Of a DNA stretch of 64,000 nt, positions 5,425 through 62,896 are shown piece by piece; positions within the stretch are counted from its first letter, which is position 1, and each line of letters starts with the position of its first letter. The position numbers and the translations under genes were made by a program. Origin of the DNA: Prostheceraeus crozeri (Eukaryota; Platyhelminthes; Polycladida; Euryleptidae). Below the pieces are notes generated by a model. It worked only from the letters and a program-made list of their open reading frames with translations. It ran no database searches and was not told the origin of the DNA. The stretch is taken from NCBI GenBank assembly GCA_907163375.1, contig CAJQUW010008706.1:620001-684000 (forward strand), read 5' to 3'.

Positions 5425-7376
5425 CATCAATAGACGTCGCATTCCTGTATGGGATTCTCGTGAATCCTTTTTGCTCGAATTTTTAAATCGTTTAAGCATG
5501 ACCGATTTTTGATTCTATAAATCATTTTTTGTCTGTAGATGATATGCTCGATGAATTTTAAAGACTATTCTATGACTGTGCTGATGTCATTCCGTGTACT
5601 TTTGTATATTTTTCTGATAACGACAAGCCGTGGGTTACACCAGTTCTTAAGTTACTGATTGACAAAAGGTGGATGGCCTTTCGATCTAAGAATTGGCAAC
5701 TTTACAACCATTACATGAACAAAATCAAAGAAGAAATTCCTAAAGCCAGACGTTTGTGGGCGAATAGACAACTTGCTACTGTCAAAGGTGTATGGAGCGT
5801 TGTAAGGGACGTTGACGGGAAAGCTGGGAAGAATCAACTTGATACTTTGATTAATGACTTTTCTGGCTCCGATGCTCTGGCTCAAGCATTTACCAAAGTT
5901 TTCTCTGAGAATTTCAATGTCTCAGATGATGTTGAACTTGGTCCTCTTGACGACAACAGCTGGAGCTTTAGAGTATCTGAATATGATGTGCTACAGAAGC
6001 TCCTACGTCTCAAGATTGGTAAAGCGATTGGTCCCGATATGATTCCGACTAAGCTTCTGATTATCGGTGCTCACTTTTTATGCAGACCATTATGTGCCAT
6101 TTTCAATCGGTCGATACAAGAGAAGACATTTCCTCGGTATTTCAAAAGTGCATTCGTTTGTGCTGTCCCCAAATTACCGAAGCCATCGCTACAGGATTTC
6201 AGGCCAATATCTACCTTATCAGTTTTAGCAAAGTTGTTTGAACGTCTAGTTTTGGATAATGTGAGAAACGAATTAATGAAGTGCTACAGTAGCAATCAAC
6301 ATGCGTATCGACCTTAAGGATCGACCACAAGTGCATTAGTGCAAGTACACGACAGCATCACGACATTGCTCGACATGAAAGGTACACAGGCAGTTCGTGT
6401 GATCACCTTAGACTTGTCCAAGGCATTCGATGGACTTCAATTTCATCGTTTGCTCAACTATATGAAAGACAGAGGTATAGACGCTGACTTCCTTAAATGG
6501 CTTTACTCATATCTTACTGATCGCCACTTTCAAGTAAAAGTACGTGACTCCTTGGGCTATGTTGTGGAAATACCTTCTGGGGTTCCTCAGGGATCTGTAT
6601 TGGGTCCGTATCTTTTTGCCGCTTTCATGGGCTGTATAGAATTTTGTGATTATGATGTTATTTCAGTGCAATATGCAGACGACATTATTTTAGAAGCTGT
6701 GAAAGAAGATGTTATTTGCATTCCTATATCATACATTGAAAGACAATTTTGCAATTCTGGACTAAAGCTTAATTCTAGAAAATGCAAAGAAATGATAATT
6801 CGCCGCTCGCCTCCTTTCCAAGTGGATGATATTAACACATCGTTTAAGCTGTGTGATTCTTTACGAATTTTGGGAGTTACTTTTTCAAATACTTTATCAT
6901 GGAAGCTCCAATTTACTGATATGTTGAAACATGCATCCAAGAGACTGTATCTAATACGTAGGTTGAAAAATGTCATCTCTTCTGAAGATTTGACTACTGT
7001 GTATCATGCCATGATTACATCGCTATTTTTATACGCGTCACCTGTTTATGGATGTATTCCTGTAACTTTAATGAATAAGCTAGAGAGCTTTCAAAGAAGG
7101 GCTCACTTGATTATTTGTGGAGCGAACTGTGATTGTAATCGCTTTCCATTAGTGGCTGAACGTATTTTTAAGGCAGGTATGAAGTTTTTGAGGGCTTGCG
7201 AGAATTCAAGATGCCATCCTCTCCATGAAATGGTTCCATCTCGCCTCCCATGCAGTGGCCAATTTTCCATTCCTTTTTGCTCAACGTCTAGACGTCTGCA
7301 CTCATTTTTCCCGTGGTTTTGTGTGCAGCTTAATTACAGAATGTGTCTTCCCCCTAGATATACATGTAGTTCGTAG
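5425..7376 (+). pseudogene. LINE ORF2, linker and reverse transcriptase (continuation after RTE insertion)
   Basis: Linker motifs 'RRIPVWDSRESFLLEFL' and 'DKPWVTPVLKLLIDKRWMAF' lead into the RT: 'DFRPISTLSVLAKLFERLV', 'LDLSKAFDGLQFHRLL' (catalytic D), 'GVPQGSVLGPYLFAAF', 'VQYADDIILEAV' (intact YADD), 'LRILGVTFSNTLSWKLQF'. The C-terminus has the 'HPLHEMVPSR ... FPWFCVQLNY' block seen at the end of CR1/L2-like ORF2. Frames at 5673-6317 and 6339-7376 are identical and separated only by TAA at 6315-6317, read as a Q-to-stop change within 'AYRP-GSTTSALV'. At least one further small indel lies in the linker near 5500-5650. Confidence 0.88.
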
Positions 7377-9539: not shown

Positions 9540-10663
9540 GCGAGATGGGCGTGCCGATGAAATGGACTGTCACGAGATGGGTGTGCCGATGAAATGGACT
9601 GTCACGAGATGGGTGTGACGATGAAATGGACTGTCGCGAGATGAGTGTGTCGATGAAATGGACTGTCGCGAGATGGGTGTGTCGATGAAATGGACTGTCG
9701 CGAGATGAGTGTGTCGATGAAATGGACTGTCGCGAGATGGGTGTGTCGATGAAATGGACTGTCGCGAGATGGGTGTGTCGATGAAATGGACTGTCGCGAG
9801 ATGGGTGTGTCGATGAAATGGACTGTCACGAGATGGGTGTGTCGATGAAATGGACTGTCGCGAGATGAGTGTGTCGATGAAATGGACTGTCGAGAGATGG
9901 GTGTGTCGATGGAATGGACTGTCGCGAGATGGGTGTGTCGATGAAATGGACTGTCTCGAGATGGATGTGTCGATGAAATGGACTGTCGCGAGATGGGTGT
10001 GTCGATGAAATTGACTGTCACGAGATGGGTGTGTCGATGAAATGGACTGTCGCGAGATGAGTGTGTCGATGAAATGGACTGTCGAGAGATGGGTGTGTCG
10101 ATGAAATGGACTGTCGCGAGATGGGTGTGTCGATGAAATGGACTGTCACGAGATGGGTGTGCCGATGAAATGGACTGTCACGAGATGAGTGTGTCGATGA
10201 AATGGACTGTCACGAGATGGGTGTGCCGATGAAATGGACTGTCGCGAGATGGGTGTGTCGATGAAATGGACTGTCGCGAGATGGGTGTGTCGATGAAATG
10301 GACTGTCACGAGATGAGTGTGTCGATGAAATGTACTTTCGCGAGATGAGTGTGTCGATGAAATGGACTGTCACGAGATGGGTGTGACGATGAAATGGACT
10401 GTCGCAAGATGGGTGTGCCGATGAAATGGACTGTCACGAGATTGGTGTGTCGATGGAATGGATTGTCGCGAGATGGGTGTGTCGATGAAATGGACTGTCG
10501 CGAGATGAGTGTGTCGATGAAATAGACTGTCGCGAGATGGGTGTGTCGATGAAATGGACTGTCACGAGATGGGTGTGTCGATGAAATGGACTGTCACGAG
10601 ATGGGTGTGTCGATGAAATGGATTGTCGCGAGATGTGTGGGTTTGTGTGTCGATTAAATTGAC
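9540..10663. repeat. 32-bp minisatellite, about 35 units
   Basis: The tandem unit is CGCGAGATGGGTGTGTCGAT followed by GAAATGGACTGT, 32 bp, repeated without interruption. The main variation is CG/CA in the 'GTCGCGAG/GTCACGAG' core and GGGTG/GAGTG, consistent with CpG decay. The unit has no stop in several frames on the minus strand, giving spurious repetitive ORFs (10021-9602 and 10373-10146). Since 32 is not a multiple of 3, all three frames are sampled every 96 bases. I do not regard these ORFs as genes. Confidence 0.95.
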
Positions 10664-15104: not shown

Positions 15105-16026
15105 ACAGCAGATCGGGTCCGTTCAGGTTGAGACATCTTTCACGACCGCACACCTCTACGGTTTACCGGTTTTACAGGTTATGGTCTGGACCGCATCATC
15201 TACGGTTGAAGAGTTACTGAAGAATCCTATTCCTTAGTTCCTTCTAGAGCGCATTCTGATATCGCGCATTCCTTTGCAAACCCTGATGAAAAGACGCGTT
15301 TAGCGACATCAGTGAATGAAGAAACTCTGCGTGTGCCACCGGGAACTCCATTTTGATGGCAACTAGATGGACTTCACCTTCGTATCCGATCCATTTTGTT
15401 TCAATCCATCCTTCCGTAAAAATAAAATTGCAACATATGCCAAAAAGCTGGTATTTCAATCATGGATTGTTCGTGGCATTAATTGTTGTTTAGAAAATTT
15501 GCGATTTAAAAGTTCTTGATTTCTGACCAAAATCACTGCTAAAATTCCAATATGAATGCCGCGATCACCCTTATAGCACAAATCCAATAACACAAAGTTT
15601 CATTGCTACAGGATCTAGTGAACACATTTTTCTCCACGGAAGTACTGGGAAAATCATAAATTGAATAAATATCATTAATTATATAACAAATTACGAACTA
15701 TCAATTAAACTTCTGTGAATTTCAAATTTCAATTCCCTAGCAATTTTGAGTCATTAATAAACAAATTATCAAGCGTCATTCTCCAAGAGCTAAACAAACT
15801 TGAATTAAAACATTGAATTGAATGATAAATTATGAAATATCAGACAAGGCGTCCAAGAAATAATTTACTCTGACATCTGTGCACCTAAAAACATTGTACT
15901 AATAGAAACTTGAATCCAACTCCTAATAATTCATTGCCTCAAAAGGATCAAACTGTAACCAAATTTGAAGGTTAAAGTCTTTCCCAGATTGAGAACATTT
16001 CTCAGTCTCTGACATCAAATCCTTAC
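15105..16026. other. Probable ANAPC1 intron or flank, no gene seen
   Basis: Lies immediately downstream (minus strand) of an ANAPC1 exon whose donor is at 16026-16021. No next exon was recognised here or further left, so the rest of ANAPC1 is either in unrecognised short exons or outside the window. Confidence 0.45.
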
Positions 16027-16560
16027 TTCATACACAAGATGAAGCGCCAGCATGACGACAGGCAAATATCGTCCCAGCATGGCAATGGACGGATTCAACT
16101 CTCCTGATTCTTGCTTTTCTTCCTCTTCTGAGTTCTCGCCTCTCCAGCTGTCCAATACTGCGTCCAGGACTGCTCTACTCGCTGCACCTTCTGGTCGATT
16201 CAATCTGGCTTTCAATTCGGCAAAATGTCCGTCTCCAGCAGCTCCTGACCCCCGTCTCATCCTTTTGGCCGGTTGATCGGCGCCACATTCATCCATGCGG
16301 CCCGTGAGACGATCCACAACTGCCCACGCCTCGCCGTAGCCGGCAGAGAGCAGCAGGAATCTGGCCAGCTTCACGGCCTCACCAGGGCGACCGGGCTCAG
16401 TGCCCGGAGCGTGGTGAAGAGTATACCAATGACTGATCAACTTCAGGCCAACTTCACGCGGCAATACTTGACGAAGAGCGGACAAACATCGACGGACCAG
16501 ACGAGAACGAGCTAGACGAGGCAGGTACACGCGAAAGCTAATGCCTGATCCAATTTGATC
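16027..16560 (-). CDS. ANAPC1: ANAPC1 exon (sixth recognised)
   Basis: Acceptor ATACTTCCAG|GATCAAAT, donor TATGAA|GTAAGG, phase 0. It encodes 'SGISFRVYLPRLARSRLVRRC', 'ALRQVLPREVGLKLISHWYTLHHAPG' and, at the end, 'YLPVVMLALHLVYE'. These align with vertebrate 'NGSMVRITIPEIATSELVQTC', 'FILPKEIAVQMLVKWYNVHSAPGG' and 'HIPAIFFVLHLVYEE'. The intervening acidic segment 'WRGENSEEEEKQE' is a lineage-specific loop. It is separated from the previous recognised exon by almost 18 kb. Confidence 0.9.
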
Positions 16561-19500
16561 CTGGAAGTATCAAAAGAGATAACTGTACAATTTGCTGCCT
16601 TAAATTCTGATATTATGGATAATTAGAAGCAGTCCCTGATTCAGCTAAGACACATGGATAAAAATTCAATTTGTAAATGTTCCCGACACGCTTCATCGAA
16701 CTGACAGTATCAAGTGTCCAAACCATATTTACCCAAGAAGGAGGGGGGATAGGACTCTGGTACCCTTACACATATTTTGATGTTGTTTAAAATTTTAACA
16801 GTTGCGACTCTCGATTTTTTTACCTTTATTTTCCATGCATTTCTGATAGTATATCCAAATTTTTATCAAATTTTGCCGATGAGAGACATCATAACTTTGA
16901 CCTTCATTCAAAAGTGCATTATGAAAATCAAGACTTTCTAGTCAGTTTCTTACAAAATTAAGCATCATAATCAATCAAAAATGCTTATAGACAATTGACA
17001 AAGTACAAATGAAGCTCTGACGAACATGCTCACTCATCCACTAATGCATCTGTGCAATTATTTTATTAATGACCATTAAAACATTACTCACAATAGATTT
17101 ATAAGTAATACTGTCAGTTTCATGCTTCAAATGGATAATCCAAAACTTAAAATGAACATTTCATGCCTCACAATATTCTTGATGTATTCATTTATTTAGA
17201 TTTGAATATTGGAGTATGTGTATCACCCTTGCCATGTCAGCAGCCTGAAATCTGATTTCAGAAGAAGGAAACAACCTCCTCAACAGCAGGTCAACTATGG
17301 AGCATGGACAGGATAAATATTGAGATAAGCAAATTTCATCCGTTCGATTCTTCAGACATTGAGATGCCATTATCGAATGTTGAATAATAGCATTGGAGAA
17401 ATAAGTTTTCGATGCTCCTAGAACTGTCAAGTGTTAATCTTCGGTGCCATCTGTTCTTTCTTCTGATAAATTGTATCTTCTCTTTAATATGGAGATGAAC
17501 ACATTGACTGCGTGTGTGGGCTGTCCTTATCTAAGCACACAATAGATGATTTGGTAGAGGAGAAAATTCCCTTTAAGTGAATACGTAATTAATGAAATTT
17601 TAGATAAGATTCAACTTCAACTCTGTCACAATTAAGCCATTTATCATGACTTGATTTATCATATCCTTTGCGTCGTCATTTCAATAAGAAAGTTATGGTA
17701 TGTTCCGATAATTCATGCAATTCTCCAATCAAATATCATCAGCGCTAGGAAAATAGAGCAAAACCCGCATATACAAAAAACGAAAAAATGATTAATTTTG
17801 TATGACAATGCTTTTCGTTCATGACAATTCTGATTAATGTGTTTCAGTGTGAATTATTAATGCAATAGATTTAATTGCACTGAGGCACATGCATGCTACA
17901 GGCACCATAGCCAGGCCGAGAAACTTTCCACTTCAAATTTAGACCGAAACATCATAAGATGCAAGGAAAAACTTCACTTTTGGCTGGTTGGATAGCTAGG
18001 TGTTTTTAGTGACCTCGCTTTGGTATAGATGTGCAGGTTACGGGCTTGTAGATATCCTAAGAACTCGATTCTAAACACGAAGCACATGAAATCAACACAC
18101 TCCACCATTTTGACAAAATAGTAAATAGTGAGTTTGAAACAACCTCAAAGATATGGGACTAGCCAAAGGCTCAGTTTTCAAGCGCGATATTTTTACTTTA
18201 ATCGAGTCATGCGCTCATCATCACTAGCGAAATATTCTTCATTCAAATTGAAAATTTCTAAATCATGAAGGAAATGGTTCAACCATGTGTTGAATTTTCA
18301 ACAGTCAGATTATTGCTTGTCCTAGAACGCTAGATCATGCCACCATCTATTTTTTGTCTATCAGGTCACATGATATACTAAAAGATTTTGAACTTTTCAG
18401 TAGGTTTTCAAATTTAAGGCTTTTTAGGACTTTTCAATGACTTCTGGGACTCCACAGGCATCCTGTTCAGTCCTCTCGAGCCTAGAGAAATCCAAAGCCA
18501 TTAACTTATTACTTTCAAAAAATCGAAAGATGACAGCTACTTGAAAAAAAATTTTAAAACTTTCTCGTAGATGACACTATCGGTACTTTACTTTATTTTG
18601 GATCTTGGTAATTGTAGAATAATTATTTGAAAATAAAAATGGAAAGCATGGTAACGAAGCTTCTGTCTGGGGAATACACTGGTGTGCCAATAAGGCAAGT
18701 TCGTTGAAACATATCTGATTTTTACATTTAAAATTATCTAATTTTCATGAGGAAATTTGCCATGAAATTGTCATTTCTGTTCACTTCACCTTAATCCCTC
18801 TACACTTTTCGTCAATCGATACAAGAAAGCCTCTATTTATGAACTTTTCTTTCTGTGCTAATGGCTCTATCTGCATGTATTTCATATATTCCAGGTGCTG
18901 GGCTGCAGCAAAATGTTCTAGGTACGTAGAGCAGGAATAATCTATCAACAGACGACTGGCAAGCGTTTGACTCGATACGGCATTATCAGATGCGTGGCAG
19001 CGTGACATCATCGTCGGAAATTTCCTCTAAAATACACTATCAATGTCCCGCTGGAAACATGAATTATTTACAACATGTTCGATGATCGCCATGAATTCCA
19101 GAGAGGATACGAACGGCGTGAATTGATGAATTAATGTCCTTATTAATTATAAACAGGAAACGATAACAGGGTAGCAAATGTGATTGCGTCACCGAAACGA
19201 GAAATCTTCCTTCCGTTCATTCATTTCTATCTGCAAAAGCATCAATCAGAGGAATCAAAAAATAGATTCGATAAATTCGCTCTTTCAATCGAGATGGTCA
19301 TCACATGGATATGATAGTGAGCCTCAGACAATCCCAAAATACAGCAAATTATATTCAGTGAATGAATTTCAGGAACAGTATATCGAAAAAATCAAATGAA
19401 ACATTGCATTATCACAAATTGAAATTTTTAGTAACTAGAAATTATTAAACAGGAAAAAATTAATAGAATATAATGAATCTTTTCAAATATATTAAGAAGA

Positions 19501-25500: not shown

Positions 25501-28500
25501 TGGTTCATGATTTATATACTACGTTTCATGGCCTTTCAAATCGTATATTATTTATTTTCTTGTGATCTGCTTTTCTGCTGATACGAGCACTTGAAATTGT
25601 TTACCCATATTACAACTTTTTAAATCAATTTTAAGTACTTTTTTAATTTTTTTATTCCTAGTCTACTATTTATTTATTTTATTTTACTATTTAAGTTTTT
25701 TTTCATTTGATTTCGAAAAACATTTCATGTCCAAAAAAACTTTATTATAAGTGACAGGTATGCAGTAACGCAAAATTAACTCACAAGAACTGTTCAAAGT
25801 GACCACCACCATTCTCAGAGCACAACTCGCATCGACGCAAGAATGACCTGTACGAAGATCGCATCATCTCGATCTCCACGCTATCGAGTAAGCTCGTAAG
25901 TCTTTCTTGTAAAGCTTCAAGAGTACGAGGACGTGGATCTCTGTATAGTTTGTCACGAATATAGTACTTCTTCCGCGTAGATGAAGGCGTTGTGAAGGTT
26001 CACAGATCCATTCAAGGCGAACGTTGCTTCATCGGAGAAAACTATATTTCCAACGAAATTACTGTCGCGCTGTTGATGTTGAAGGATAAGGTTAGAAAAC
26101 TTGATTCTTTGAACTTTATCGTCGTCCGAGATCTCTTGCATGCGGGTAAACTTCCAAGCTCTCAAACCTTCATCTTTCAACACTCTGTTCACCGACGATT
26201 GTGAAACGCTGCAGAGCTGAGCTGCCTTTCGTTGCGAAAGTGTTGGATCATCACCATAGGCCTCGACTATTTCGTCTCGTTTGTCGTCGGAAAGCCGTCG
26301 ATCTGAATGGTCACCGACTCTTGCATTTTTGGTGACAGATAGCGAGGTTTTAAAACGCTTTGCCCACCCAATTAAGGTTGTGTGCGGTGGAGCTTCTTTC
26401 TTAAAATCTATACGAAATCGTCGCCTTGCATCTTCAGGATATGAAGAGATGGTATAGGCCACGGCCGTCGCAATTTCTTCATTCGTGAAGCCAGGATAGT
26501 TCATTGCTGTCAAGTGTTGATAGTGAATAAATTTCAGCCAGTTTAATACCGTCTACACTGAAAAGTCAATCTCAATTAACTTTGCATGGTGTCGCTCAAA
26601 GCAAGCAATTATTAGATATCTATGCTGAATGCGGCTGATGATATTGATTGTTGCGATGTTCTTGTCATAGATATTGATTTAAAAAGTTGTAATATGGGTA
26701 AACAATTTCAATTGCTCGTATCAGCAGAAATGCAGATCACAAGAAAATAAATAATATACGATTTGAAAGGCCATGAAACGTAGTATATAAATCATGAACC
26801 ATCACTACAACCAGACATGTGATACAGCTGTAGTCCTTACTTGAAAAGTGACGGGAAGATCAGAATCACCCTGTATGTGCCTGCAAAAGCGTTCATATAT
26901 TAATATAGCTGCACACAGCATATGTTTGCAGTACATGAACAACTTAACTTCGTGTATTTAGTGAGATTCCAAGAGCATTGATAATAGCATACTTTCCACG
27001 CATTTTTGGCTTATACATGGTATTTTCGATCCTATAAATGTAGACAAAGCATTGGTACCTGTCCTCATGAACTTTATGTGTCGAAAAAAATTTTAGAAGT
27101 ATGAAGTTCGCGAAATTTACGATTTTCGGATACGAAACATGATGAAAGTTCCGCGAAAAACCATTGGCCTAGAGTAGAATTCACAAAATCACTCGAGGAT
27201 GCGCGAGGTTGGTTTATATAAACACCATCAGAAATTCTAAATAATTTCAACATAATGACATAAATGTTTATTCTCTATCGAATAAATTATTTGTAAATTA
27301 GTTCAGTACGGTTGTTTACACTTAAATTCACAACAGACACACTTAGGTAAATTGTACTAGTCACCTTCAGTGTAAAGGAGTTCTGGAACTTCATCAGGCT
27401 TCTTAATCTGGCACAATAAGCCTTCATTACGTCAGTGCAGCAGAAAAGACCAATCTTTTGAAAATTCCATTGTAGATTTTTGGACGTGAATAGTCTCAAC
27501 AAGTTCTCTTTCAAAAAGTAGGATTGGCAGCATGTGTGTGGGCTCGTCAGTCTCAAGGTCACGTCATCAGACAGTAGCGTGAGACATTCACCCCGCACAC
27601 TGACTTGGAATAATTCCATCAAGTCCACTCATTCAAGGTGAACTAGTGGCAGTTTCCTCTTTCTCGTCAGACTGAACAATGCGCTTTCACAAATACGTGA
27701 ACGAGATTAATAATGAGAAAATTATTTAATTAATCTAATCATGCAAGTGCGTTATTTCTTCGGAGAAGTTTGCTTCTATCGATAGTTGGAAATTTAGACA
27801 TGATTTAGACAAGTTTTTAATTTGACAAGTTCTCGACTTGTATTTTCGAAATTTTCACAATTTTTCATAAAATTATTGGCTGCCAGATCGACTCGCATTT
27901 TTTGAGACGACGTTCCTCAGAGCGCCCGAATAAATAGCCAAATTGAATTTTCTTCTAATTTTTTAGGCTCTAATGGTACCATTCCCGACCTCGAACGACG
28001 CCTAGAACGTCCGAAAATTGCAGTTGAAAAATTTAATGGAAAAACTCTAATTTTTGAATGATGCGCTCGACAATAATGGGTTAATATAGATTTCCTTCTC
28101 CGTCACTGTAATATCTTTTGTCTTTTCTTCTAGCGCCAGATATCTTGAAATCACAAATTCGGGCTTGTCAAAAATTCTCTAACATCGTCATGACAAAGTC
28201 CCACTTTAACTCCAAAAAATGACAAAGTGATGCCTTTCATGTATTTTTAGGTATTAGCAACAATTAGGCTTCGGAAGAATATGTTTTTAACCTAAGACCT
28301 GGATTTTAACGTAAAGCGGAGCTTTTGGATCGGACGGATCACCTTTGTCAACATAGCTTCAAGCAATATAGATATCGAGCAATGTCTTCTTAGTAAAGAA
28401 GACTGGGCAGCCACTTTCAAGTAATTACAAGCTCTTGTGACAACCAGCGTATTTCTGCGATTTCTTGTGCGACAACAGACAAATTTCTGAAAACACATTG

Positions 28501-40500: not shown

Positions 40501-43500
40501 TGAAAGCAGATGTAGAAAACTTTTCAACACATCACACCAATGGCGGAAAGAGAACCAAAAGTGCATCTTACTTTGTTTGCGATTCCTCTTCGGTTGGATG
40601 TCTCTCCAGGAGAAGTCCCATTCCCGCAGGCCACATGTTCCAAACCCGAAAAGGAATTCGAGTTTCGTACTTCTCCCCTTGCGTCGTGTAGAAAAGCAGA
40701 CAATTGTCGGAGGTGAGCAGACAAATACCTTCCTTCTTCTCCCCGTGAGGTTTATTTAACACAGACACCGAAGTCCATATTCGAGAGGTCTCCACAAAAC
40801 TTCGCTTAGGTACCAAGAATTCGGCCCAGCACGCGCCGACAATGCTTTCCCCTTCCCCAACTGACACCACGTCGCTAATGCATGATGTGAGACGTCCAAA
40901 TGAGGGTCCAGGAGTAGTGTCAGAGTCCATTGATGATTCCTGAAATGACACGGATTAAGATCACAATAACTAGAAGTTCTTCGTCAGTCATGAAATCCAA
41001 CAGTTCAAGGTAGCACGCACTATGCTACTTCGTGGGAACAGATGAAGTTTCAAAATAGAGATAAGCCAAAAAACGTAGTCGGGGAAATTAAATTACTACG
41101 CAATGGTAATTCTGATTCTGATTTGATGTAGTTTGTCATTTGAATCATTTGATGCTCAAAGCGCTAAGGCAGCTTCTCATCTCAAAAGTCTGCATCGCCC
41201 GCAAGGCTCCCCAGGTACAGTATTTAATAGAATATAGCCGCCCTTGAATAGTAGCCTCGACTATTATTCGATGCCGCGTATGGACAGCTTAACAGAACCA
41301 TATATGCCCATGTGCTCCCTGCCGCTTCGAGTGTTACAAAGGCTTCTAAATGACTGTACGACATTGAATATGCAGAGAGAACTCCAGCGAGTTCCACATC
41401 CTTGAATGTGCATAATAGACGAGTGCTAATTACGACAGAGACGAGGCTAATTCTACTGAGTTGAAGGCTATGAAAACCATTCAACATTCCTTTTTAATTT
41501 AACAATATGTTGTATAAAATTTCATTGGCTACGGTTAATTTCAACCATAGGCTATTACTTTACTTTATCCTTTTAGCGTCTTCGTTTCCCCTATACTCGA
41601 GGGTTTGACGTTTGATCAACCGTCTCCAATGGTTTCGATCCTGGGCGTCCTCTTCTGTCGCACCAATCCTCGTCAGATCATCTTTGACGTTTGCGAGCCA
41701 AGTCCCTTCTTCGGCCTTCCACGAGGACGCGCTCCTTCCACCACGATGTCCAGTACACGACCAAGGGCTCCTTCTCCGTTTCTCCTCTTCACATGCCCGA
41801 ACCACCTCAGTCTTTTCTCCGTGATCACTTCTTCCAACGGGCTAATACCAAACCGACATGCCACTTCACTGCTGGAGATGTTATCAGCCAGTGATATGCC
41901 GCACATGCAGCGTAGCATTCTCCTGTCGCATGCCCGTAATTGATGTTGCAGTCTTTCTGTCAGATTCCAGGACTCCGCACCGTAGAGCAACACAGATCTC
42001 ACACAAGTGCTGTATACAATGGCTCTGCACTTCAGCGGGATATGACAGTTGCGTAGAAGACTGGCAAGCTCTTTCCACTTCCTCCACGCAGATGCAACTC
42101 TTGCTTTAACAGCTCGCTCTGATCCGCCGTTGCATGCGAGGAAGTCACCGAGGTAACAGAAATCGTACACTTCATCCATTTCTTGGTCATCACTTTCATC
42201 ATCGTCTTCATGAGCGCTGCTTAGCACAGTTGGGGAGCGAGAGCATGTGGGACAGCGGAAATCGACCACGTAACAAATGCTTCTCAAGCCGCTGCAGCGC
42301 TTGTGGCACCACTTGTTGCATTGACCACAGAGGACCGAGTTGACGCCAACACCCCTTCCACACACACCGCAAGGATACCTGCCACCGCGAATGGGTTCGC
42401 TGGGTTCCTTTCCGCTCACCATGTATTTGGTCTTCCCGATGTTGACTTTCATACCACACTTTTCCGATCTCTCCTTCCAGTTTCCAAACCTCGCCATGAC
42501 TTCCGTCTTGCTCTCACCAGTCAGAACCAGATCGTCGGCGTATAAGAGCTCCCAGACACCTCCGATCATGCAGTCTCTGGTTGCCTCCTCCATCACTAGG
42601 ATGAAGAGAAGTGGGCTGAGAGCGGATCCTTGATATAGTCCAACGTTGATCCCGAACTCGTCAGATACACCCCCTGCGACGTTGACTTGTGATTTCGAAC
42701 CGACATACAGTGACATGACGACATCGATGAGTCTCTCCGGAACACCTTGACGGCGAAGTGCCCATGCGACTGTACATCTGGGTACCCGGTCGAAGGCCTT
42801 CTGCAGGTCGACGAAGATGTGATGGAGTCTCTTCTTCTTTTCCAAAAACTTTTCTTGCAGGCTATTGCATGTTAATAAAAATGCTGTTCATTTCCTAAGC
42901 CTGTCCGGCTGGAAGGTTTAGTCAAAAGAATTGAATGAATGTTCTAGGATTTGGTGTCATAAGCTCTATAACTTAGTTGAATACTAAATCGGTAAATTTC
43001 TGCCGACAGAGCTTCAGTTAATGGAAAGGGCGGTTACTTTTGCCAATGCAAAGGTCTTTATATTACTCAGGTAGCCAGAACGAGCTTCTGTACGGAACGA
43101 GACCGAAAATGAGACTTTCACAAAATGATGTACACCCCATGTGCGAATCTGCGCGTCTGCCGAGTTCTAGTTAATTCCTCTTCTTGTCAGATGCGATCAA
43201 AGGAAAACACAAGTTAATTCAATGGGAAGCAGATTGCAGATTTTAATTAAAATGAAATTTTCCATGTTTTCGCCTATTACGGTGAAAGTACTAAGTCTTC
43301 AGGACATTTCCTGTTATGTTCATGCATCCCTGTAAGGGAAGCTAAACACATTCAGATTTGGCTAGCTGCCTAATGTCGGCTAGCCTGACACCCAATCAAC
43401 TCGGTGTGTGACCTCTATACCTCAGCCAAAATCGAAAAAAATTGCATGGCATCTTGAATTATCCGTCGGCCACGATATAGTCCCCAAACATTTTGAAATT

Positions 43501-56419: not shown

Positions 56420-57934
56420 AACTCACAAAAATTTGAAATCATCGGCGTATTATAAAATGTTATTATTAGAAAGGCACACATCGATATCGTTTATAAAAAT
56501 GTTGAAAAACAATGGCCCCAAAACAGAGCCTTGCAAAACCCCAGTGGAAGCCTCTATATGGTTAGAGACCGCTTCATGAATTCTCGAATGCCTCTTTGAA
56601 ATAGAAAAGCAACATCAACACACCTTCTAGAAACTAACTTACACGACATATTCGAAAAAGGTAAGAGCAGCTGCTTCTGTCGAGCGGTCTCATGAACCCA
56701 TGCTGAGGTTAAGAATATTAATTTACTTGTACAAATAAAACGATCCAATGATATTTGATAACTTTCTATATGACTCTACAAACGGAACTAGCAATTGCAT
56801 TTGGTCGGAAGGCTTTAAGGTCTTATTTGTCACCAGTTTAAAAATGGGCATAACCGACAGCGTTATTCAATCATACAGGATTTTTTTTGTAGTCACAGAT
56901 ATCATAAATAAGGTAGTAAGTTTACTACCAAGAACAGTCGCACCTTCCTTCAATACCTTGCATGAAATTCCGTCAATGTCAGTATTCGCACGATCGGGAA
57001 AGTTCATCAAAATGTCACGTATGATAGAGGCGTCGAACGGAACATGATAGAAGGATTGCTATCACCAAAGTGCACAATTTGCTGGTGAGATCCAGTACAA
57101 TTTTACTAAATGTCGTGGCAATCTGATAATGATCTGCAAGAATGCTACCAAATTATCTTTCAATACATCAAAGCGATGATCTACAATGAGCATACCTTTT
57201 ATATATGACCAAAATGCATTGCTATCGGACTTCCTCAACTTACCTACCTTAATCTCATGATCTAATTTTACTTTCTGAACAATATACGTAATAGGCATTT
57301 GAGCATGAGATTGGCAAGCTGCTGCCTCGAAGGTAGGTTTCATCTTGAATTGATCGAATAGCCTTTTGAAAGCTCTGCATGCTGCTCTGAACTTTGATGA
57401 ACGTATAGTTTGCCATTTAGATTTCCATTTATATGGCACACCTGAATCCAGTGCATTCTGGATATTCATTTCAATAAATTCCATACGTCATTAACATTTG
57501 CATGACTACTTACGACATTCCATGAGGCTGACTTCAAATGTTGCAAACATAGTTTCCAGTTGTTTCTATTGGAGAAAGAAACTCTGATAAGTTGATCTGA
57601 CGAACAGTGAATGGCAACGTTCATCTAGGTAAAAAAAGCTCTGGGACATATATGTCTGATACTTGCGTATACAGAAAAGTAAAAAGAAGTACTAGGGGGT
57701 TTGTAGATGGTGGCCGCGTAGACTAATGAATATGCTGCTTTAAGAAATTATCCAAATACCAATATCAAAAAGGACTACTGTTTGAAATAGCAACGTTGTC
57801 GGATCACATAATGTCAGGGTAATAATCTCATTCAAAAATTGAGAAGTTCACAATTCGCATAAATGTGATGGGTAGGTGATGGGTATACACATATGATATT
57901 AAGAACTTTGGCATCGTCCAGTGCAATGTGACAT
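56420..57934 (-). pseudogene. LINE ORF2 part: EEP end, linker and RT remnants
   Basis: Right after the P element the EEP continues 'IALDDAKVLNIICVYPSPTHH' (from 57934). Then 'QLIRVSFSNRNNWKLCLQHLKSASWNVVSS' and 'KVGKLRKSDSNAFWSYIKGM' (57484-57170) form the linker. RT remnants include 'FDASIIRDILMNFPDRANTDIDGIS', 'PQHGFM', 'ASTGVLQGSVLGPLFFNIFINDID' (about 56555-56480) and 'YADDF' (about 56435-56421). Multiple stops and frameshifts. Confidence 0.82.
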
Positions 57935-60900
57935 CAGGGAATTATAGATAGTGTATCGGGAAGAACAACGCACGATGTTGCGAAATCTGCCTTGACAGGG
58001 AGAGGGTTAACATCTCGCGCTGCAGTGACTGCTTACATGACAAAGATAGAGCGAGAAGCTGTCCCTTCCAAGTTCCAATGCATGCGATAACGTGACTCAC
58101 ACCTTTCATTACCTATGTGTAAATGTGTTAGCTGGGACATTGCTTCGTCTTGCTGACTATCGGACTGTCCGATTCTCAACTTCGCTCGCCATAACGTGTA
58201 TTACCGTGTAACATATATTTTAAAGACAACGTTCAACCGATGGTGTTTTCGTGCTGCGTTCCTAATTGTCGCAGTGGCTATAAGCCCAGGAAAAATGAGG
58301 TCATTGAGAAATGCTCAATGTTTCAGTTTCCAACAGACCCTGCTCTACATTCAAGATGGATGTCTGCTATCCCACGAAAGGATTTTACTCCTAATGAGAA
58401 TCACAGAGTGTGTGAGAAACACTTCAACGACCACGACTTCGAAACAACGTCGACCGACTCACGTGAAAGTAGACGGAAGAGTAGATTATCGCAAATTCTT
58501 CAGAAGAAACGATTGAAATCAACGGCAATTCCTTCAGTGTTCCCAGGGTGTCCTAAATATTTCACCAAATCTCCAACTGTTCCCCGATCTTCAAATTCGA
58601 CTGCTGATTCCCGACGGTCCTTTGAGAACAATAGAATTTGATCAGAGAATCTATTGAGGAAGATTCGTTTGATTCTCTCGATGCTCTGCGTTCGAAACTA
58701 AGTGATTCTTCAAGTCACCCTCTCCCCACCAATATTGTGAAGGTAGATCATCAGTCGTGTTTGATTTTTATGTACGTCAGTGTTTCTAACATCGAACTTA
58801 TGGCTCCTGTTCACAAAGCTACGGTGATCGTCGACGAAAGCATGAGCGTGCGAGTATTCGTGCTGTCATCAAAGTTAGAGAATTCCAACTTTCACCATAT
58901 CTTCAGTGGAGATAAAGTAAAAACTATTTCTCAACTTTGTAACGTTATTGCCTATACGAAGAATTTGTCAGAAAAACATTTAGATAACAACAGTACCTCT
59001 CAGTACCTAGAACTCGCTGCTTCTTTTCTTGAAACATTTTTAGATTGTGAAAGTCAATCAGATGACCCCGAATTTGAAATGTACCACCTAGTAAATTTTG
59101 TTATTGAGCAGCTGCGACTTTGTCAAGTACCAAAGAATGCCAGAAAATATTCATGTAAGACGTTGGCACTTTCTTTTTTGTGGCAGATTACAAGTGCATC
59201 TTTGTATAATAAATTAAGAGATATTTTTATTCTGCCCTCTATGACTACGCTGCGTTCATTGTCTAGAGGATCTGCAGTTGAAACCTGTTCGATTGATCTC
59301 GAGTATCTGCAAAGGAGATCAAGTTTTTTTGGATGACAGAGAAAAAATTGTTACATTGATGATCGACGAAGTCTATACTGCTCAGCGTGTAGAACTCAGT
59401 AATGGACAATTTGTAGGTTATACATCGGATGGCATACCCGCCAAGACCGTTTTAACTTTTATGATTCAGTCGTCTTGTTCAAAATATAAGGATATCGTGT
59501 GTTTAATTCCTGTGTTTCGACTTAATTCCGATATTTTGTACAATGAGTTTATGAGTGTCATTCGTCAAATTGATTCACTTTTTCGTGTTGTTGCTGCTTC
59601 AACTGACAATCATGTGATCAACCGCTCTTTTTTCAAGCGACTTTGTGGTGGTAATCAAATATTTCCTTTTATTAACCATCCTATTCGAGCAGAGGCAAAA
59701 CTGTTTATTTTATTTGATTTCACTCACAACTTGAAGAACATATTCAATAATTTTGTGAATAAAACAAAAATGACACTTCCTGATGGACATAGAGATATTT
59801 TGAACGTTGACGGTGTTTGTAATGCCTCATTTTTACATGTAAAGAAACTGTATTCGAAGGAGGAGAACTTGCCTTTGAAGATAGCAAATGCATTGAAGGC
59901 TCGCTAAATCCGGTTAATATTTCTCGAACCTATCCTCAACATGCGCTGTCAATTTTCCATGAATCAACTGTGAATGCTCTTAGATTTTATGATGACAGAG
60001 ATAGGCAGACAGCTGCATATGTACAGATAATTGTTAACGTTTGGAAAATTGTTTCACTAAAAAATCCTTCCGAAGGATTTCACAAAAGTGATCCTATGTG
60101 TGAACCTTTTCGAAATCTGTCAGATTCTCATGTTTTGTATTTGAGACGTGTCACAAATCTTTTTGAAGACTGGAAGAAGTCTAGACGGTCAGGTCTCACA
60201 GATGAAACATTTTTAGCTTGTATTCAAACTATGAAAGCTCTACCTATGCTAGCAGATTATTTAATAAAAATGCATGGTTTTTCATATGTACTTCTTGGAA
60301 AATTCTGTTCTGATCCTATTGAAGCCCGATTCAAATGAACGGGGGCAACATTTTAATGTCAATAAAACAATTGCTTGAATCAGAAAAGAAAATTCGTGTA
60401 CTTGGTCAAATTCAGCGGAAACTTATTTCCACTGTTATGCATGATGACTCCTTTCTGATTGTTAAACCAGACGCTTTATGTGAGTCCAAGTGGTTGGTGG
60501 ATTTTTTGTCACCAGAATTGTTGGACTTCGACAATTTATTAGAAAATGATGTAAATATTGTTTACTATGTTGCTGGTTACATCGGTAGAAGTGTTGCACG
60601 CCAATTCAAATGTTCGGAATGTAAAATTCTGCTTATTGCAAATGATTCTGTCGACGAGTGTCCACCGTTTACGATTCCTTTGGGTAGTAGCCAGCTTTTT
60701 GAAATGGCCAATCGAGGTGGTTTGGCTAAGCCCTCAGATTTGTGTTTTCTTATAAGCGCGATCGGCTACCTCTCTTACGCTGTCATTTTTGAAATGATGT
60801 TTCGAAATCACGTTTCCTTTCAGAGCAAAATCATCGCTCTCTGTTTGTGAAAGCAACATCTGATGTAATGATGCGCAAATTCTGTAATATATCGACGAGA

Positions 60901-61460
60901 TGCAAATCAAATCATATTGCTGTTGACCATATTCTCACACGAATGTACAATTGTTTGTCAAAGAATGAACTAAAACGAGTGAACAAAGATGAGTCGGCAA
61001 GTATCACAAAAAAATGCAGGAAACTTCAGAGTGATTTTTGATGTACACAATGGTTGTCAAATCATGTAAATATGATGTTGTAAATATTCCTTAATTTTCT
61101 GTGAATAGTTCTTGCAATATTTTCTTATTTGTTGGATGAATGTTTTAACACGAATTTTTGTAAATATTGTAAAATTATGTAAAAAAACAAGAAACTGTAG
61201 AGAAATGCTGCAAACTGTAATAAATTTTCTTGTCATATTCTTCATTGCTTTCATTATTTATATAGTGTATAAAGATGGGGATGTGCGCATATACATGAGT
61301 TATGATATGCAATTAATAGTTGTACATAGCGATTTAGTATCTTGACTTAGGCAACATGAGTGGTAGTGTTCTAAACTACTAATGAAAGTAACCCTCATTA
61401 TGTCAGTAGTGCGACGTTGTTGTTCTTCCCGTAACAAAAGATATAATCTATAATTCCCTG
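57935..61460 (+). mobile_element. P-element-type DNA transposon (THAP transposase), complete ends, perfect 8-bp TSD
   Basis: The ends are CAGGGAATTATAGAT (57935-57949) and its exact inverted copy (61446-61460). A second shared inverted block, CGGGAAGAACAAC, lies 7 bases further in on the left and 14 bases in on the right. Target duplication TGTGACAT is exact (57927-57934 and 61461-61468); 8-bp duplications are characteristic of P elements. The 3526-bp body encodes a THAP-domain transposase on the plus strand, followed by AATAAA at 61219. It is inserted in the EEP domain of a LINE. Confidence 0.96.
58240..61041 (+). pseudogene. P-element/THAP9-like transposase in six open segments
   Basis: It starts at ATG 58240 with a THAP zinc finger: 'MVFSCCVPNCRSGY', 'FQFPTDPALHSRWMSAI', 'ENHRVCEKHFND' (C2CH, DNA binding). 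Then come 'LEYLQRRSS' and the RNase-H-like catalytic region: 'IVTLMIDEVYT' (first acidic residue), 'AASTDNHVINRSFFKRL' (second), 'ILFDFTHNLKNIFNNF', 'HESTVNALRFYDDRD', and 'LLGKFCSDPIEARFK-MNGGNILMSIKQLLESEKKIR' (the DPIE-type motif). The C-terminus 'VYYVAGYIGRSVARQFKCSECKILL' is typical of this family. Segments at 58240-58641, 58638-59336, 59278-59907, 59907-60338, 60335-60850 and 60847-61041 lie in changing frames; each junction is a short overlap with no stop inside segments. One junction is at a run of seven T (about 59322-59328). Confidence 0.92.
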
Positions 61461-61468
61461 TGTGACAT

Positions 61469-61582: not shown

Positions 61583-62896
61583 ATAGGGAAGACTGGGGTG
61601 ACATAGCATATGGGTCCTCCTGAAGAAACTTAAGGCAGTATGAAGCCACCAGTGTTTTCTCCAGGACCATCTCCATATCAGACAGTGATAATATTGCAAT
61701 GCCTGCTTCAGTAGTTTATGTCTCAGGCGAGGATGAAGTAAAATTGTTGAAAAATCACCTTTTTTGGAGTTTGACACATCAACTTTCTAAGGGTCCTGTA
61801 TACAAACTCGGACGAGTTGAAAATTGAATTCTGTCTGAAGATCTATCAGAACGAGACTTCATTTGAGTGGTGGTATATCACGACTACATGAAATTTGATG
61901 TCACATGAAACGTGAACATTCATTCAGGATGGGGGTTGGGTTGAGTTGGCATATGGTGGCATGGGGAGAGTTGGCATATTAGCTGATGGGTAGAGCTGGC
62001 ATACTTTTTTAAGACCTTGCGCTGAATATCGAAGACATTTTTATGTGGCTCCTGTCTTCCATTTAAGTGCCTGACCGACCAGCTGTAGCTTCGGCCTACA
62101 TTAGAGGAGACCATGGTTAGGACCTTTTGAATCCTATTAATAGCTTTCATAAGTATTAGGCCAAATAAGGTCACATGGTCAACTGAAAAGACATCAGAAA
62201 TTTACATAAGTTTGCGGATTCATTTTTTCCACCTGAAGCCGAAGGAGCACTAATGAATGGCGCATCATGCTCTTGTTATCAGCTTTCGTCGTCATGATCA
62301 TTGCCGGTAATGATACTAGCGTCCATATGCTCCCAAACGTGGAGTTATACGATGATTGAATAAAAAGATCAAATGTACTGCACCTGTTGTCTTCCTTCGT
62401 ATAAAGTGTTGACTAAATAAATCACAAAAGTATCCTCTCCAATGTTTCCTGCAGTCGAAACAATTTATCTGTCTTGATTCATATTACCACTCTCCTTTCC
62501 AACGCTTTATTCAGCTGGGCTAATGACCGGACAGATATCTATGCCATCGTCATAGCGATAGTTATGATGGCCGTTTAACTTCCCGAAGCGCAGAGTTCCA
62601 TGCTTTTCCAATTAATCAAAAGTTGTCAATATTTAGACATCAACTACGCTGCTTTCGCTACACAAACACCTCCACATGTCATGTCTGCCCACCCCTATGT
62701 CAACCCACCACACCTGACCACGAATGTAAAAATGTGAAGCATGTGGATTCTATTGACCATTCATGAAAGAGATTTTAAAGAATGGTTAAGTGATGGTGGT
62801 GACACAGAGTGGTCACAATACCGGCACTTCACCTTCATTTATTAATCAATGAGAGCATCTTCACAAAACGTGCGCCATGTCACCCCAGTCTCCCCT
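61583..62896. mobile_element. TIR DNA transposon, AGGGGAGACTGGGG ends, 8-bp near-perfect TSD
   Basis: The left end ATAGGGAAGACTGGGGTGACA (61583) and right end (reading inward AGGGGAGACTGGGGTGACAT) form a TIR of about 22 bp. Flanks ACTGGAAC (61575-61582) and ATTGGAAC (62897-62904) match at 7 of 8. A TA duplication is also possible because TA precedes GGG at both ends. The interior has repeated GAGTTGGCATA motifs (about 61945-62003) and no recognisable transposase. It is inserted in the EEP of the minus-strand LINE. Confidence 0.78.

Follow-up and report, generated by a model that had tools for sequence, protein, structure and literature searches.

Excision scars suggest unequal, block-guided cuts in a P-superfamily transposon family of the flatworm Prostheceraeus crozeri

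The locus examined here carries a transposon that had been described, from its letters alone, as a complete P-element-type element whose inner inverted block is spaced differently from the tip at its two ends. Does this asymmetry belong to one copy or to a family, and does it bear on where the element is cut? The element itself is ordinary; what is new is the cut geometry that can be derived from its excision scars. Of the original prediction, the asymmetry is the most valuable part, since the apparent cut positions follow from it.

Intact ends around a broken frame

Read directly from the window (the whole analysed stretch of 64,000 nucleotides), the element spans 57935-61460, or 3526 bp, with TGTGACAT on either flank. 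Its features are as follows.

57927-57934, no strand: target-site duplication, left copy, TGTGACAT (sequence; single copy, TTTGACAT, at the paralogous empty site L063)
57935-57949, plus: outer terminal inverted repeat, left, 15 bp, CAGGGAATTATAGAT (sequence and repeat search)
57950-57956, plus: left spacer, 7 nt (retained in the longest left scars, 22-23 nt)
57957-57969, plus: inner block, left, 13 bp, CGGGAAGAACAAC (outer edge is the putative inner-strand cut)
57993-58009, plus: candidate subterminal inverted repeat, left, element positions 59-75 (13/17 matches to right copy)
58240-58641, plus: transposase piece 1, start codon and THAP domain (PF05485, 2.2e-17)
58635-59336, plus: transposase piece 2, other frame (without a Pfam match of its own)
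59245-59907, plus: transposase piece 3, N-terminal part of RNase H (PF21787, 1.6e-06)
59365-59367, plus: predicted catalytic D, D230 of Drosophila TNP (L007 alignment to 6p5a; codon counted by hand)
59605-59607, plus: predicted catalytic D, D303 of Drosophila TNP (same alignment; codon counted by hand)
59823-60338, plus: transposase piece 4, ending just past the catalytic E (without a Pfam match of its own)
60321-60323, plus: predicted catalytic E, E531 of Drosophila TNP (same alignment; codon counted by hand)
60323-60850, plus: transposase piece 5, C-terminal region (without a Pfam match of its own)
60793-61041, plus: transposase piece 6, frame end (sub-threshold, unrelated Pfam matches only)
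61389-61405, minus: candidate subterminal inverted repeat, right, element positions 56-72 (pair comparison with shuffles)
61419-61431, minus: inner block, right, 13 bp, CGGGAAGAACAAC inverted (sequence; found in right ends across the genome)
61432-61445, minus: right spacer, 14 nt (retained in the longest right scars, 29-30 nt)
61446-61460, minus: outer terminal inverted repeat, right, 15 bp, CAGGGAATTATAGAT inverted (sequence and repeat search)
61461-61468, no strand: target-site duplication, right copy, TGTGACAT (sequence)

The outer 15-bp repeats and the inner 13-bp blocks are perfect, with spacers of 7 nt on the left and 14 nt on the right. A repeat search of the window recovered the 15-bp arms at 100% identity and an extended 29-bp arm at 79%, and nowhere else in the 64 kb does either motif recur at full identity. 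The P-type ends of the original prediction are thereby verified, with exact coordinates for termini and inner blocks, as is its exact 8-bp duplication at 57927-57934 and 61461-61468. Since TGTGACAT is not a rare word (5 matches in the window against 4.4 expected), what makes the duplication convincing is where it stands, together with the other members of the family, rather than the match itself. The subterminal pair (59-75 / 56-72) is suggestive at most, a 13/17 match having been reached by 9 of 300 shuffles; its left member may possibly be a THAP site.

The same prediction called the element complete and its transposase recognisable end to end. Completeness stands for the ends and recognition stands from the THAP domain (2.2e-17) to the C-terminal region, but the coding frame consists of six overlapping open pieces in changing frames, which had gone unmentioned, and the window copy is non-autonomous because its frame is broken. 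In two other copies, L007 and L010, a single exon holds a continuous frame of 958 codons (about 943 if counted from the first methionine onwards), which is open also across the region of window piece 2. The intact copy matches the THAP profile PF05485 at 4.2e-16 and PF21787 above cut-off. Intact L007 aligns to the Drosophila P transposase (6p5a) with an E-value of 1.1e-05, placing D230, D303 and E531 on D, D and E, and the window pieces carry the same residues; the part of L007 that corresponds to window piece 5 aligns to a canonical P transposase. A P-type RNase H fold with a D-D-E triad is thus predicted for the family. L007 and L010 differ by 7 synonymous and 15 non-synonymous substitutions, a ratio of about 0.6; these are too few changes for an estimate of selection. 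In eight deleted copies inspected for KP-like repressors, the longest frame from the THAP methionine has 119 residues (L054) and barely extends beyond the THAP domain. One scan of viral contigs confirmed no viral relatives of the intact transposase.

Copies, duplications and empty sites

The genome that holds the window (2.05 Gb in 14165 contigs) was searched with the whole element and with its ends. With 40 of 226 candidates scored, the whole-element search returned 65 matching pieces, including copies up to 99% identical over the full length. A first search for ends left the spacer open at 5-16 bases and yielded 232 matches, of which about a hundred were listed; among the matches listed, every left-type end has a spacer of 7 and every right-type end one of 14, with a single exception of 13. 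The directional asymmetry noted in the window copy is therefore a property of the family. Using fixed spacers, 116 left ends were found with both repeats exact and 130 right ends with at most two mismatches, against 0 for the reversed-pattern control in either case.

Pairing of the listed ends gave 72 copies, 13 of them at 3.49-3.61 kb and 16 at 2231-2257 bp. In the nine copies of the shorter class for which the missing interval was read, it is the same, about 1708-2990. Eight of them are flanked by exact 8-bp duplications that differ from copy to copy, although one consists of an AT repeat; the left join of the ninth is irregular. Internally deleted classes have thus multiplied as well.

Duplications were tabulated for 72 end pairs, which coincide in part but not entirely with the 72 paired copies. 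They are exact over 8 bp in 53 pairs, over 9 bp in 10 and over 7 bp in 1; the 8 inexact ones are one base off (3), two (2), five (2) or six (1). A genome search with the ends, proposed earlier as the check on the element, has thus recovered the same termini beside different 8-bp duplications (53/72 exact). Six of the ten 9-bp cases lie on one common flank and represent one duplicated locus. They are copies of about 2.05 kb with the same flanks and the duplication GTATAGGTT, on contigs C438, C1084, C5119, C6268, C7742 and C10677, and may be a duplicated locus, haplotigs or a passenger inside another repeat. Exact 9-bp duplications are present in five independent copies and a 7-bp one in a single copy, so that the target stagger seems to be slightly variable. 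Both ends were not located in seven of the first 20 loci (L005, L008, L012, L015, L016, L018, L020); L005, L008 and L015 had exact 8-bp duplications in an earlier reading and stand outside the 53.

Two paralogues of the repeat that hosts the window element lack the insertion. The one on C2612 is 79% identical and gapless across the junction, with a single TTTGACAT; the one on C13064 is 76% identical, reads TTTAACAT and has small alignment gaps nearby. Over 52 independent sites, the target preference amounts to a weak palindrome only.

Fourteen full-length copies are 0.6-4.1% apart (mean 2.0%), the nearest to the window copy among them being L002 (0.6%) and L003 (0.9%). L001-L004 and L008 have four length changes in common relative to intact L007, judged by size and order; L001, L002, L003 and L008 occupy different target sites and L004 lies in an AT repeat. 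A frame-broken lineage found at different target sites has evidently been moved by transposase from elsewhere. Membership of the P superfamily and mobility of the family are near certain.

Two copies on contig C2870 with the same flanks (L072/L073 and L080/L081), normal in other respects at 2.25 kb, are separated from the duplication GGTTCTCA by 13 additional nt of terminus, CAGGGAATTATAT, which resemble a piece of an excision scar fused to a copy.

Excision scars and the apparent cut positions

Cut-and-paste transposition with a deep cut in the second strand is expected to leave, as residue, the target duplication together with a stretch of each end. Sites of this kind were sought with an exact pattern of the first 11 bases, a gap and the last 11 bases, which heavily trimmed scars escape. 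Genome-wide, gaps of 0-30 gave 27 sites, gaps of 31-60 gave 11 and gaps of 61-90 gave none, with no site for the reversed patterns. All 38 sites were fetched, and the 31 that are independent and have an exact duplication (8 bp in 29, 9 bp in 2) were kept; two duplicates (L159, L182) and five sites without an exact duplication (L147, L148, L156, L161, L163) were dropped.

Counted by exact match to natural variants of the termini, the 31 scars retain 12-23 nt of the left end and 12-30 nt of the right. The right stretch is the longer in 26 of them and the left in one, with four equal (sign test without ties, p = 4.2e-07). The longest left stretches measure 21-23 nt (nine scars) and the longest right ones 28-30 nt (sixteen scars), and by exact match they end where the inner block begins or at most one base inside it. 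The block itself, with up to three mismatches allowed, is absent between the ends at all 38 sites, and its first five or more bases occur only in L180, whose right end reaches 36 nt, or 7 nt inside the block, if one mismatch is allowed. The two ends do not overlap in L150 (left 22 nt plus 7 nt of filler), L167 (23+28) and L179 (23+29 with 4 nt of filler). Filler, a frequent outcome of end joining, is present in several scars and is in some partly copied from the ends; elsewhere the piece shared with the ends is no longer than in shuffled sequence. In three of the 31 (L146, L170, L178) either end is reduced to 12-13 nt, which makes them little informative, and L178, counted as 12/12, reads 12/29 at the same locus on another contig (L182). 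None of the loci examined pairs a scar with a filled copy sharing both its flanks. The data suggest that the short sites are excision scars, that is, repaired products in which trimming hides part of the overhang.

A canonical P family of the same genome, family A (L189-L193), served as a control. Three of its copies are 99.3-99.6% identical over the main stretch; open frames of 738 residues in L191 and 735 in L189 have the THAP domain in a neighbouring frame, the ends are CACAGAACAAGGAGGAGGTAGAATGAGTGTT and CACAGAACAAGGAGAAGTAGAATGCGTGTT, and the duplications are GGCGGGGG and GTATAAAC. Its transposase is 21% identical to that of the window family over 607 aligned positions. The two families have in common 8-bp duplications, a 13-bp inner block and scars that mostly end there. 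Family A differs in its near-continuous repeat of 31/30 bp, in a block that begins at position 19 (left) or 18 (right), hence after 18/17 nt, and in matching four P-transposase domains of Pfam, the GTP-binding domain among them at 3.2e-39; its layout resembles that of Drosophila P (31 bp, 17-nt cut). The scar pattern built for family A matches 15 sites genome-wide, against 0 for the control; the 13 that were fetched represent 8 independent loci by flank, six with exact 8-bp duplications and two (L195, L204) one base off. At seven of the eight loci no more than 19 nt of the left end and 17 nt of the right are retained; the exception, L203/L205, retains 28 left nt and so runs 10 nt into the inner block. 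In both families, then, scars stop at the block, at distances that differ between the two, and each family has one exception.

The short sites might instead have inserted in their present form, as miniature copies with internal deletions, since they carry 8-bp duplications, three independent sites share one 48-mer and two share a 45-mer, and longer internally deleted copies do transpose. We nonetheless consider this unlikely: apart from L180, 37 of the 38 sites possess neither the inner block nor its first five bases, nothing is found at gaps of 61-90, the contents are heterogeneous with some filler copied from the ends, and the 48-mer has a three-base overlap of the two ends at its join. An ordinary P-type family making symmetric cuts of about 29-30 nt, with left overhangs merely trimmed more, would explain right retention of up to 30 nt, trimming being variable. 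It fits poorly, however, with a left stop at the edge of the inner block, which family A repeats at its own block in 7 of 8 loci, and with the finding that none of the 31 scars has at least 24 left nt by exact match although nine reach 21-23; symmetric cutting thus appears quite improbable. As for a domesticated or dead relic with chance repeats and without recent mobility, the window frame, broken at several places, would suit it, but it is refuted by the many copies 0.6-4% apart, with their different duplications, empty sites and open frames elsewhere, and we give it practically no weight.

The explanation we favour, and hold to be probable, is a P-superfamily cut-and-paste family with unequal overhangs in which the inner block would set the inner-strand cut. 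Ends, duplications, empty sites, copies and the contents of the scars, with their limits, are established directly; from them the following course of events can be proposed. The family (THAP and RNase H, D-D-E) appears young, and the window copy is a frame-broken member evidently mobilised in trans by transposase made elsewhere. The transposase would cut at the tip on one strand and, on the other, at the outer boundary of the 13-bp inner block. From tip to block the distance is 22 nt on the left and 29 nt on the right; because these distances differ, the single-stranded extensions would be unequal, about 22-23 against 29-30 nt. The donor site would retain those stretches and be closed by end joining, often with filler. 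In Drosophila P, according to the available text of PMC7776569, the second strand is cut 17 bp into the 31-bp repeat, whose inner half is held by the helix-turn-helix domain, with the single-stranded stretch looped out and partly disordered. By analogy, the inner block may be the docking site, equivalent to the inner half held by the helix-turn-helix domain, and the looped stretch may tolerate different lengths; docking at the block, a cut at its edge and a tolerant loop would together turn spacers of 7 and 14 into unequal extensions.

Blocks at 22/29 nt beside those of family A at 18/17 nt form a natural spacing series within one genome, from which it is predicted that shifting the inner block would shift the cut. 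More generally, readable excision scars persist in genomes, so that cut positions can be estimated without biochemistry. Among the titles and abstract openings searched, a set in which most subscription journals are missing, none reports a map of unequal cuts, or one derived from scars, for any P-type element.

Relation to known P elements

In the wide sense the family belongs to the P superfamily, since a THAP domain, an RNase H D-D-E, an 8-bp duplication and shared terminal repeats are all present. We do not file it as a canonical P element because it has neither a continuous 31-bp terminal repeat, its layout being 15 + 7 or 14 + 13, nor a match to the GTP-domain profile. Set beside the 17-nt staggered cut that canonical elements make at both ends, its scars, which are repaired products, retain up to 23 and 30 nt. 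The view that full-length P elements with verified ends are seldom documented outside flies finds no support: in this genome all 150 candidates scored, out of 1766, exceed the PF21787 cut-off, and zebrafish Pdre2, with repeats of 13 bp and a duplication of 8 bp, is a full-length element already in print (PMC10983969, available text). Very many P-superfamily genes coexist in the genome, and open frames of 700-890 codons contain some of the PF21787 matches.

Pfam matches of the window family are confined to THAP and the N-terminal part of RNase H. The GTP-binding domain PF21788 has no match in the intact copy P0002 at E-values up to 10, a range in which the HMMER filters drop most matches above 0.1. 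Among the eight GTP-contacting residues named in PMC7776569, D528 is aligned (by hand count, in a region that aligns weakly), N447 is aligned only in the three-protein alignment, one of two, and the remaining contacts in neither. Because the region aligns weakly, loss of GTP use can be put forward only as a hypothesis. A fuller reading, in which a cut measured from an internal block and unequal extensions would go together with loss of the canonical GTP pocket in favour of another cofactor or none, is conceivable, though we incline somewhat against it. As a relative of P in which no GTP domain can be recognised, the family offers a handle on what the cofactor does.

As far as the available text of PMC7776569 goes, Drosophila P (6p5a) has in common with the window family the THAP finger, the D230/D303/E531 triad, the 8-bp duplication, internally deleted non-autonomous copies and an asymmetry of its ends, and is distinguished by its continuous 31-bp repeat, 17-nt cut, introns and GTP pocket, against 15+7+13 / 15+14+13, apparent cuts of 22-23 / 29-30 nt and a single exon here. 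Its asymmetry lies further in, with 9 vs 21 bp to the THAP site at the 5' and 3' ends. The accessible part of PMC3688188 places that site at 53-63 (5') and 41-51 (3'), and the two sources conflict on which end has the longer gap. THAP domains are described as restricted to animals (PMC7776569, same text).

Pdre2 / zfTHAP9 is alike in its short (13-bp) repeats with separate 12-bp subterminal repeats, its 8-bp duplication and its deleted copies (PMC10983969), whereas its repeats are separated by about 400 bp (PMC7776569) in place of 7/14; the available text of PMC10983969 contains no scar-derived cut map. Galileo, also of the P superfamily, has very long, internally repetitive ends, and THAP leaves a footprint there 63-80 bp in from the terminus (PMC3688188, accessible part), near the position of the candidate subterminal repeat of the window family (59-75 / 56-72).

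Elsewhere in the window, weak Pfam and PDB matches mark ANAPC1 exons at 16018-16569 and 40571-40954 on the minus strand, and the transposon lies outside them. A minisatellite at 9540-10639 comprises 34 copies of 32-bp units that are 93% alike, reverse-transcriptase pieces (PF00078) occupy 6318-7373 and 41676-42887, and a sub-threshold Tc-like helix-turn-helix match lies at 25956-26552. The right flank of the transposon, about 61583-61700, forms part of an older interspersed repeat; with 40 of 138 candidates scored, dozens of places match it at 79-89% identity.
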